This document shows positions 44,352 through 51,507 of a stretch of 58,367 nt of DNA, piece by piece; position 1 is the first letter of the stretch; each line of letters opens with the position of its first letter. The DNA lies in IMG/VR virus record IMGVR_UViG_3300025085_000023, positions 1-58,367 of that record, one strand, 5' to 3'. The notes beneath the pieces were generated by a model. That model ran no database searches and was not told where the DNA came from. It was given only the letters and a program-made list of their open reading frames with translations. The position numbers and the translations under genes are program-made. Origin of the DNA: a virus.

Positions 44352-44530
44352 TATGCTTGCTCCTTGTTGAATAGTTTACGACACTTTTTAACTTCTTTGA
44401 GTTCATCCTTGATCATTTGATAAGCATCTTCAGGAGTGATACGTCTTGACATTTCCATGGCAATAGTGTATTCAACTCTTGTACCAAAGTGTTTAAGTGC
44501 TTCTTCAAATGAGTTTAGTTCCTCATACAT
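44351..44530 (-). CDS. Small helical protein (59 aa)
   Basis: A short frame that fills the gap between its neighbours with TAATG overlaps on both sides. It is a charged helical protein (FEEALKHFGTRVEYTIAMEM; EDAYQMIKDELKEVKKC). No family name known to me. Confidence 0.68.
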   Translation of the reverse strand: MYEELNSFEEALKHFGTRVEYTIAMEMSRRITPEDAYQMIKDELKEVKKCRKLFNKEQA

Positions 44531-44691
44531 TAGTCAGGGTCTCCATCATCGTCATATTGTTCACCGTATTTATATCTTCCTTCTACATCTTCATGTAGAT
44601 ATGAACTAGTATCAGAATAAACCTCAGTTTTTAATGACTCTATTAGTAACTCTAGATTATGAACAATTAATTTAAGTTTACTTTTTTCCAT
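44530..44691 (-). CDS. Small acidic protein (53 aa), first in the thyX unit
   Basis: 53 aa from the ATG at 44691; an in-frame ATG at 44706 gives 58 aa but would be close to the transcription start. Helical N-terminus (KSKLKLIVHNLELLIESLK), acidic C-terminus (EQYDDDGDPD). The stop overlaps the next start (TAATG). It follows the promoter at 44713-44741 directly. Confidence 0.62.
   Translation of the reverse strand: MEKSKLKLIVHNLELLIESLKTEVYSDTSSYLHEDVEGRYKYGEQYDDDGDPD
44567..44574 (-). promoter_or_regulatory. Late promoter-like motif inside coding sequence
   Basis: A perfect TATAAATA on the minus strand, inside the 53-aa gene and 37 nt before the ATG at 44530. It may add late expression of the thyX unit. 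Confidence 0.35.
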
Positions 44692-44712
44692 AGGAGTTTT
44701 TACCATGCACCT

Positions 44713-44741
44713 ATGTTACCATAAAAAAAGAAGGGTGTCAA
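44713..44741 (-). promoter_or_regulatory. Promoter of the thyX-phoH unit, -35 in terminator loop
   Basis: TTGACA (44736-44741), 17-nt spacer, TAACAT (44713-44718) on the minus strand. The -35 hexamer is the complete loop of the terminator hairpin at 44729-44748. Confidence 0.7.
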
Positions 44742-44748
44742 CCCTTCT
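44723..44748 (-). terminator. Intrinsic terminator with TTGACA loop
   Basis: AGAAGGG-TTGACA-CCCTTCT followed by a seven-T run (44729-44723) on the minus strand. It ends the transcript of the DUF4278-like gene (stop at 44766) 18 nt after the stop. Confidence 0.82.
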
Positions 44749-44765
44749 CAATTACTTGTAAGTTA

Positions 44766-44933
44766 TCACTTGCTGTAGGTCTTCCCACGATAGCAGAATG
44801 TGCCATGGGTTTCCTTTGATTCAACACAACGTGTAGTATACTCAACACCACGATATGAAGTGTGTGTAATCTGTGCGTCGTGCAAAGCAGATACTTTTTT
44901 GATCTGCTTTCTGATCATGTTTAGTGTGTTCAT
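44766..44933 (-). CDS. DUF4278-like small protein
   Basis: 55 aa from the ATG at 44933, which has AGGAGA 9 nt upstream; a longer in-frame ORF runs into the gene upstream and is not used. Two YRG motifs (TSYRGVEYTT and FCYRGKTYSK) fit the DUF4278 pattern common in cyanobacteria. Basic, two Cys. Function unknown. Confidence 0.65.
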   Translation of the reverse strand: MNTLNMIRKQIKKVSALHDAQITHTSYRGVEYTTRCVESKETHGTFCYRGKTYSK

Positions 44934-45204: not shown

Positions 45205-45233
45205 ATTATACCATATTATATAGAATATGTAAA
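45205..45233 (-). promoter_or_regulatory. Sigma-70-type promoter downstream of speD
   Basis: TTTACA (45228-45233), 17-nt spacer, TATAAT (45205-45210) on the minus strand. The -35 element overlaps the 3' arm of the speD terminator hairpin. Confidence 0.75.
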
Positions 45234-48574: not shown

Positions 48575-48603
48575 ATTATACAATAAAAAACCACCCCTGT
48601 CAA
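48575..48603 (-). promoter_or_regulatory. Consensus sigma-70 promoter, -35 in terminator loop
   Basis: TTGACA (48598-48603), 17-nt spacer, TATAAT (48575-48580) on the minus strand: a full consensus promoter. The -35 hexamer is exactly the loop of the terminator at 48590-48611. It drives the 2OG oxygenase, glutaredoxin and perhaps rnh. Confidence 0.85.
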
Positions 48604-48611
48604 GGAGTGGT
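48585..48611 (-). terminator. Intrinsic terminator with TTGACA loop
   Basis: ACCACTCC-TTGACA-GGGGTGGT (8 bp with one G-U) followed by a six-T run on the minus strand. It ends the transcript of the 73-aa gene stopping at 48670. Same design as the terminator at 44723-44748. Confidence 0.82.
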
Positions 48612-48908: not shown

Positions 48909-49118
48909 TTATTTATTGTATAGGTCTTCCAATTTTTCTTTGGATAGATCTACATACATAACCTCTTCACCTGGTTCAGGTGCTTCAGGATGTTTTGGTT
49001 TTGCTGGAGGTTGTGGTTTCATATCAAGTGACATGATATTTGCCCACACCATTGCGAATGCTGCACCCCCAATGAGAGCGAAGCATACGCCATAAACAAA
49101 TACTAGATAATGATTCAC
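48909..49118 (-). CDS. Small membrane protein next to psbD
   Basis: 69 aa with an N-terminal membrane helix ([20 protein letters not shown]) and a Pro-rich soluble tail. The ATG overlaps the psbD stop (ATGA), so it is translated with D2. It may sit in the thylakoid or cytoplasmic membrane; a photosystem role is suggested only by position. Confidence 0.75.
48910..48917 (-). promoter_or_regulatory. Late promoter-like motif downstream of psbD block
   Basis: AATAAATA on the minus strand, overlapping the last codons of the 69-aa gene and 19 nt before the ATG at 48891. Fits the late motif; the AT-rich stop region makes chance possible. Confidence 0.4.
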
Positions 49119-50170
49119 AATGCGTTTCCACGAGGAAGAACTTCTTCAGGGAAGATGAAGTTCTCATGTGGTTGGTCAGCAGGTGCCATCCAAGCACGTA
49201 GTCCTTCATTCAATAGGATGTTCTTTGTGTAGAACGTCTCGAACTCAGGATCTTCTGCTGCTCTAATCTCCTGACTTACAAAATCATAAGCACGAAGATT
49301 AAGAGCAAGCCCAATGATGCCAATGCTTGAGACCCAGAGACCCATGACAGGAACAAACAGCATAAAGAAGTGCAACCAACGCTTATTGCTAAACGCAATG
49401 CCGAAGATTTGTGACCAAAAACGATTCGCTGTAACCATCGAATACGTCTCTTCTTCTTGAGTGGAATCGAACGCAGTGAATGTGTTGTTCTGTTCACCAT
49501 CTTCATACAATGTATTCTCTACTGTAACGCCATGGATTGCTGACAGCAATGCCCCACCCAGTATACCAGCAACTCCCATCATATGGAAGGGGTTGAGTGT
49601 CCAGTTGTGGAAACCCTGAAGGAACAACAGGAATCTAAAGATTGCTGCTACCCCGAAACTAGGTGCAAAGAACCATGAAGACTGACCCAGTGGATACAAA
49701 AGGAATACACTGACAAAGACAGCAATAGGACCAGAGAACGCAATAGCATTGTAAGGACGGATACCAATGAGACGTGCCAGTTCAAACTGACGGAGCATGA
49801 AACCAATTAGGGCGAAGGCACCGTGGAGAGCAACAAAGGACCAAAGCCCTCCAAGTTGGCACCAGCGTTGGAAGTCGCCTTGAGACTCAGGACCCCAAAG
49901 TAGAAGAAGAGAATGACCCATAGCATCAGCAGGCGTCGAGACAGCTGCTGTGAGAAAGTTAGCACCTTCAAGGTAGGAACTAGCAAGACCATGGGTGTAC
50001 CAACTCGTAACAAAAGTCGTGCCAGTAAGCCAGCCACCAATGGCCAAATAAGCAGTGGGAAGAAGTAGGAGTCCAGACCAGCCCACAAAGACAAAGCGAT
50101 CTCGTTTAACCCAGTCGTCCAGGACATCGAACCACCCCCTCGTTGGTGTTGTTAGTGTACTTGTTGTCAT
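49115..50170 (-). CDS. psbD: Photosystem II D2 protein
   Basis: 351 aa, full length (cyanobacterial D2 is 351-352). [24 protein letters not shown]-like loop region [40 protein letters not shown] with the chlorophyll/iron His, and [20 protein letters not shown] are typical. D2 pairs with D1 in the PSII reaction centre. The phage copy keeps photosynthesis running while host transcription stops. It lies downstream of psbA, separated by a terminator hairpin, so its expression may depend on read-through. Confidence 0.98.
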
Positions 50171-50260: not shown

Positions 50261-51337
50261 TCAACCAACAGATGGAGCAATCAAGGCCACAGGTGTGGAC
50301 TCAGCTGCTGCAAGATCAAGCGGGAAGTTATGCGCGTTTCTTTCGTGCATGACTTCCATTCCGAGACCTGCTCTGTTGAGCACGTCTGCCCAGGTGTTGA
50401 GCACACGTCCTTGTCCGTCGAGGATGGACTGGTTGAAGTTGAATCCATTGAGGTTAAATGCCATGGTGCTTACGCCCAGTGCGGTGAACCAGATTCCAAC
50501 TACAGGCCATGCTGCGAGGAAGAAGTGCAGTGAACGGGAGTTGTTGAATGATGCATATTGGAAGATCAAACGACCGAAGTAACCATGGGCTGCGACGATG
50601 TTGTATGTTTCTTCTTCTTGACCGAACTTGTAACCATAGTTCTGTGACTCTGTTTCAGTCGTTTCACGAACGAGTGAGGAAGTAACGAGACTTCCATGCA
50701 TAGCAGAGAAAAGAGATCCACCGAATACCCCAGCAACACCGAGCATATGGAACGGGTGCATAAGGATGTTGTGTTCTGCTTGGAATACAAGCATGTAGTT
50801 AAAAGTACCAGAGATACCAAGAGGCATAGCATCGGAGAATGAACCTTGACCGAACGGATAGACTAGGAATACTGCACTTGCTGCAGCGACTGGAGCAGAA
50901 TATGCTACACAGATCCAGGGGCGCATACCAAGGCGGTATGAGAGTTCCCATTCACGTCCCATGTATGCGTAGATACCAATGAGGAAGTGAAAGACTACCA
51001 GTTGGAAAGGACCGCCGTTATACAACCACTCATCGAGTGATGCGGCTTCCCAGATGGGATAGAAGTGAAGACCAATTGCGTTGGAGGATGGGACAACTGC
51101 ACCAGAGATGATGTTGTTTCCATACATGAGTGAACCAGCGACTGGTTCGCGGATGCCGTCGATATCGACAGGAGGTGCTGCTACGAAAGCAACGATGAAG
51201 CAGATGGTTGCCGCCAACAGAGTTGGGATCATCAGTACACCAAACCAACCGACATAGAGACGATTGTTAGTTGATGTCACCCACTCACAGAAATTCTGCC
51301 ATGGGGATGTTTGTTGTCTTGAGAGAGTTGTAGCCAT
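50261..51337 (-). CDS. psbA: Photosystem II D1 protein
   Basis: 358 aa from the ATG at 51337; a TTG four codons earlier is unlikely. [55 protein letters not shown] with the redox Tyr, and [14 protein letters not shown] with the C-terminal cleavage site after Ala are typical. [10 protein letters not shown] shows Glu at the position equivalent to residue 130, the high-light D1:2 type. D1 is the fast-turnover PSII subunit. No intron. Upstream lies a consensus promoter and a leader of about 165 nt. Confidence 0.99.
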
Positions 51338-51507
51338 TGTTTTAAACAAAAAAGTAAGACCATCAGGGAAATGGTGGAGTTACTATTCCTATGCCACCCT
51401 TAGGCACAGGTATGAAAGACTATTGTTTAGACACGCTGTTTAGTCTTGGTAAGGCGTGTAAAGAAGCGTTAAGAAATGTGTTGGTTCCTTAACCTGCCGA
51501 TGTATTT

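Follow-up and report, generated by a model that had tools for sequence, protein, structure and literature searches.

The window, that is, the whole 58,367-nucleotide stretch of DNA analyzed here, covers positions 1–58,367 of the IMG/VR record IMGVR_UViG_3300025085_000023 and comes from a cyanobacterial virus. On its minus strand, positions 44749–44713 read GAGAAGGG-TTGACA-CCCTTCTTTTTTTATGG-TAACAT and lie between two minus-strand genes. The upstream gene (44769–44933; stop codon, 44766–44768) encodes 55 amino acids and is the last gene of the upstream operon. Its product had been described as DUF4278-like: a resemblance to PF14105 is present, but the match (22.5 bits) falls below the Pfam cut-off (25.3 bits), and the label is used here in this weak sense. 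The downstream gene (44530–44691) encodes 53 amino acids from a conserved ATGGAAAA start at 44691, or 58 amino acids from an in-frame ATG upstream at 44706, and is the first of a thyX–phoH–gp32 gene run.

Hairpin and promoter at the operon boundary

The segment at 44728–44749 (minus strand), which starts 16 nt past the stop codon of the DUF4278-like gene, forms the hairpin of a predicted intrinsic terminator, a class defined by a GC-rich hairpin of at least 5–6 bp with a short loop and a U tract directly on its 3′ side. Folding yields −12.1 kcal/mol (z −3.7) with four GC pairs. In the most stable fold, the first T and the last A of TTGACA pair with each other, resulting in a 9-bp stem with a UGAC tetraloop. 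The tract at 44723–44729 (minus strand) has seven T in all, one of which is paired by the stem in the 7-bp reading and two in the 9-bp reading, and the 3′ end of the upstream RNA would be expected here. The notation CCCTTCT-T7 of the preliminary description had counted one T twice; its formula of a hairpin with a TTGACA loop before a T tract was otherwise sound, except for the strand, which is the minus strand.

The same sequence includes a putative sigma70-type promoter, a class in which near-consensus hexamers are separated by 16–18 nt. The −35 box TTGACA (44736–44741, minus strand) is located in the hairpin loop, and the −10 box TAACAT (44713–44718, minus strand; 4/6 matches) follows it at 17 nt, after TGG, in the manner of an extended −10. 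The promoter scores 10/12 with TG ahead of the −10, and the T tract lies within the −35/−10 spacer. Re-reading of the sequence agreed with the preliminary description as to the existence and position of the element, its TTGACA loop, and the spacing of exactly 17 nt. The −10 of this copy is weaker than in most of the composites described below.

A second composite is present at 48575–48611 (minus strand), where ACCACTCC-TTGACA-GGGGTGGT-TTTTTATTG-TATAAT forms a 12/12 promoter (TTGACA-17-TATAAT), a better match than the copy at 44749–44713. It is located between the psbA–psbD side (psbA, 50261–51349; psbD, 49115–50170; both upstream of it and identified by sequence) and the RNase H/speD operon, whose end is at 44749. 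The genes between the two copies are 2OG oxygenase-like, RNase H, speD, and DUF4278-like; as the two composites flank this run, it would begin at the 48611–48575 copy and end at the 44749–44713 copy. The arms of the two copies are unrelated in sequence. Among the 38 TTGACA hexamers in the window, 9-bp hairpins surround only two (2/38), and in both cases a T tract follows and a −10 is located at 17 nt. A separate strong promoter within the run (TTTACA-17-TATAAT, 11/12 with TG; minus strand, 45205–45233) is located upstream of the two small genes that precede the 44749–44713 element, and the scans report no hairpin there.

Distribution among phages and cellular genomes

The preliminary description had proposed a search of cyanophage genomes for inverted repeats that enclose TTGACA and are followed by a T run and a −10 box. 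In ten stretches of 40–58 kb (the window, S-H9-2, Syn1, S-RIM44, Syn9 twice, S-PM2, ACG-2014h, P-SSM2, and S-CAM8), a scan recovered 60 strict terminators, 13 of which are composite, with a spacer of 17 nt in all 13. The antisense control on the same stretches gave 0/60 (p = 1e-4). When the downstream halves were permuted among the terminators, 9.7 ± 2.1 composites were obtained, a value not set apart from the 13 observed, since the score was lenient and composites share one register. By the strict scan, the Syn9 and P-SSM2 stretches lack composites, and the S-CAM8 stretch has one. Six of eight other Kyanoviridae examined carry one to three composites within the 40–90 kb read. Composites are located directly ahead of hli genes in four phages (S-H9-2, Syn1, S-RIM44, and S-PM2) and, in Syn1, also after psbD.

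Similar elements are found beyond this family. In the Herelleviridae, the Staphylococcus phages phiSA_BS2 and RSM-J51Sa carry AAGAAGGG-TATTGACA-CCCTTCTTTTTTTATGT-TAAAAT, which in the annotated phiSA_BS2 genome lies between a lysin gene and the next gene; no additional composite was detected in the 42 kb of phiSA_BS2 beyond the matched region. Several hairpin-bearing IMG/VR contigs that have no close cyanophage relatives contain a clamp-loader-like gene, recognized by eye, and hence look like other T4-like phages. The composite is thus not a rare single case: it occurs in a second copy in the window, in Kyanoviridae, in Herelleviridae, and in these apparently T4-like contigs. A group of ten contigs with composites (for example, AAAGGGTC-TTGACA-GACCCTTTTTTT..TATAAT) share genes with one another, and several of them have the clamp-loader-like gene.

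When the hairpin was used as the query, RGGG-TTGACA-CCCY-T5 was found in 22 viral contigs, and in all 22 a −10 with at least 4/6 matches is located at 16–17 nt. The anagram loop TCAGTA in the identical hairpin pattern was found in 0 viral contigs. The reverse-complement loop TGTCAA was found in 13, nine of which are the opposite strand of A-tract/T-tract hairpins bearing TTGACA, so that this loop serves as a control only in part (4 of its contigs are independent, vs 22 for TTGACA). In nine contigs, the TTGACA hairpin is preceded by an A tract and followed by a T tract; these are possible bidirectional terminators with a −35 in the loop, and their best −10 is at a spacer of 16.

A looser scan for GGG-TTGACA-CCC gave 48 non-redundant elements with divergent arms. 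TATAAT with at least 5/6 matches is present at a spacer of 17 in 28 of these and at 16 in 8, with no more than 2 at each remaining spacer between 8 and 25; as the scan required TANNNT within roughly 10–18 nt, the contrast is independent only within that range. The outer pairs 4, 5, and 6, which the pattern left free, are paired in 48/48, 46/48, and 42/48 elements, respectively, the pairs being of the GC, AT, and GT types with occasional CG or TA. The −35 in the loop and the −10 at 17 nt are kept despite the divergence of the arms.

In the converse approach, promoters matching TTGACA-N6-9-T5-N2-7-TATAAT were gathered from IMG/VR blind to hairpins, spacers of 16–18 were counted, and a score of at least 12 defined a strong hairpin around the −35. 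Among the matches listed (120 contigs), the −35 lies within a strong hairpin at 31/120 viral sites, compared with 1/111 among the matches listed for bacterial and archaeal genomes in the identical scan (Fisher p = 3e-9), frequencies that hold for those matches and for a cellular sample composed mostly of Firmicutes-type MAGs. The sole cellular case is all A-T. After near-duplicates were collapsed, the matches listed gave 24/107 viral and 1/108 bacterial or archaeal sites. Other TTGACA hexamers in the listed viral contigs have a strong hairpin in 4/783 cases, and in 388 cyanobacterial genomes, which represent the host clade, 26 promoter sites were found with a strong hairpin at none (0/26). In these samples, roughly one in four comparable strong viral promoters has the fusion, which is nearly missing from the sampled bacterial genomes; this near-absence suggests a virus-specific pressure.

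The orthologous site after the DUF4278-like gene

The DUF4278-like gene was used to gather 80 IMG/VR loci, and 35 non-redundant terminators, named phages included, were compared. Downstream of this gene the terminator is almost always kept, and its arms vary widely. At some loci, a −10 at 17 nt accompanies the loop TTGACA, TTGACG, TTGACT, or TTGCGA, whereas others have the loops TTTCGA, TTCCGA, or GAAA and no such −10. The −35 score of the loop rises with the score of the −10 placed at exactly 17 nt (Spearman 0.51, p = 0.0016, n = 35), and the association is also found by Fisher test (p = 0.0045, n = 35), both values ignoring shared descent. In these comparisons, the terminator is the constant part of the site, and the −35 and −10 are variable parts that tend to appear and vanish jointly. 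The sixth base of the −35 is often changed so as to pair with the base just ahead of the hexamer, as where C precedes TTGACG; judged by eye, such changes fit the prediction from structural constraint. The proposal of a double constraint on stem, loop, and T tract finds good support in the divergence of the arms, the constancy of the −35 core and of the 17-nt spacing, and the tendency of a loop −35 and a −10 to occur jointly.

In other orthologues, the promoter is located ahead of the hairpin or there is apparently none at the site, and since the loop of many orthologous terminators contains no promoter, the fusion is not needed for phage viability. Eight loci have the reversed order downstream of the DUF4278-like gene: a promoter (e.g., TTGACT-N17-TAGAAT) precedes a hairpin of terminator type at about +1, after which come a T run and, immediately behind it, the ATG of the next gene. 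RNA made from such a promoter would carry the terminator hairpin at its start, and the order resembles that of the M13 VIII/III region.

A probable composite terminator–promoter and its alternatives

The element is, with high probability, a composite in which the terminator that ends the preceding operon is joined to an insulated promoter read by the host sigma70-type RNA polymerase (RNAP). T4-like cyanophages use host RNAP, in contrast to N4, whose hairpin promoters are used by a virion RNAP. This reading draws on features evident in the sequences, namely the hairpin and the promoter, each a strong signal on its own, the 17-nt register, the arms that remain paired while diverging, the recurrence in viruses, and the near-absence from the sampled bacterial genomes. 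During transcription of the upstream operon, the arms and TTGACA would form the RNA hairpin, and the RNA would be released at the U tract. As double-stranded DNA, the same loop would serve as the −35, and the T tract would be part of the sigma70-type spacer, such that the holoenzyme would start the thyX–phoH–gp32 run at about 44706, downstream of the hairpin. A 3′ end and a start site are thus both predicted for the 44713–44749 element. With the promoter starting within the terminator, the hairpin would be missing from the new transcript, transcription reading through from the previous operon would be stopped at the very point at which the new operon begins, and hardly any additional DNA would be used. 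The benefit is probably insulation plus compactness in a gene-dense phage genome. The earlier view that the end of one operon and the promoter of the next share about 36 bp is upheld by the divergent arms, the fixed −35 core, and the 17-nt spacing.

A terminator and a promoter might also coincide by chance, given that TTGACA is a short motif and T tracts occur frequently; this was rejected by the controls and has close to no probability, as the number expected by chance in the window is 0.02 for the 20-nt hairpin with up to three mismatches, the window has two copies with a spacer of 17, and the viral scans are strongly enriched over the genomic ones. The inverted repeat, which is perfect and centered on the −35, might instead be the operator of a phage or host repressor rather than a terminator. 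Conserved arms were found neither between the two window copies nor among relatives, whose arms differ while the pairing is kept, and this candidate was likewise rejected; the T tract is on one side, terminators without a −35 occupy the same site, and the operator reading is very improbable.

Pure compaction, in which the loop and the T tract are free sequence into which a promoter drifts and the overlap merely saves DNA, is a credible explanation to which we give somewhat less than an even chance. It is favored by the short intergenic space and by the orthologous site, where the terminator is kept and the promoter is optional, placed before the hairpin, or apparently absent. However, the occurrence of the fusion in about a quarter of the scan-defined strong viral promoters, in unrelated families and mostly at 17 nt, suggests a positive use, an argument that still allows selection for compactness alone. 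A further proposal is that the terminated RNAP stays on the DNA with its active site within the promoter spacer, keeps or regains sigma, and moves straight into the promoter that overlaps the terminator, one operon thereby supplying polymerase to the following one. The 3′ end is predicted to fall within the spacer, about 20 bp upstream of the start site, two composites bracket one operon in the window, and E. coli RNAP usually remains on DNA after termination, diffuses, and re-initiates at nearby promoters in vitro (Kang, 2020, PMC6978380; Harden et al., 2020, PMC6978322). However, a re-initiating RNAP that can diffuse far makes the overlap unnecessary, restarts usually occur in the reverse direction (Harden et al., 2020, PMC6978322), and the plain terminators at the orthologous site show that the arrangement is dispensable. 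We regard this handover as attractive but unlikely, and hold similarly doubtful its extension to large phages of several families, in which polymerases passed from terminators to overlapping promoters would make the operons a termination-paced transcription relay. Polymerases that pass the site would clear the promoter, and any coupling could therefore be negative. The earlier suggestion that termination is tied to re-initiation is compatible with the anatomy of the element.

The composite resembles intrinsic (Rho-independent) terminators in its GC-rich hairpin, the U tract directly after it, and its position just past a stop codon, and differs from them in that its loop is a −35 kept at a 17-nt spacing from a −10 located past the U tract. 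Similarly, it belongs with the early host-read sigma70-type promoters of T4-like cyanophages (TTGACA-17-TATAAT class, at operon starts), except that its −35 is inside an inverted repeat and a terminator T tract occupies its spacer. The intergenic region of M13 genes VIII and III, the site of the central terminator and of the gene III promoter, also combines these two signals within one short stretch; there, the sequence has a −10-like TACAAT before the hairpin, whereas the promoter of the present element extends downstream and shares the loop. Post-termination re-initiation offers a possible route for a terminated polymerase into the overlapping promoter, although those studies used other templates, unlike the phage composite, and E. 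coli RNAP (PMC6978380; PMC6978322). In Staphylococcus phage vB_SauM-515A1, the weak early promoter p98 is reported to be located immediately after the terminator t97 (PMC7698491), and this pair is from the Herelleviridae, a family that also has a composite. The passages on p98 and t97 do not mention a −35 in the terminator loop, the characteristic feature of the composite (PMC7698491).

The component parts are standard, and no earlier description of a terminator–promoter fusion of this architecture was found in the open-licence literature searched. Terminators and promoters are usually annotated separately, and a promoter lying inside a terminator may escape notice. Should the element function as proposed here, it would represent a recurrent phage design that punctuates operons in about 36 bp, would provide natural substrates for the in vivo question of RNAP recycling after termination, and would constitute a compact insulated-promoter part.
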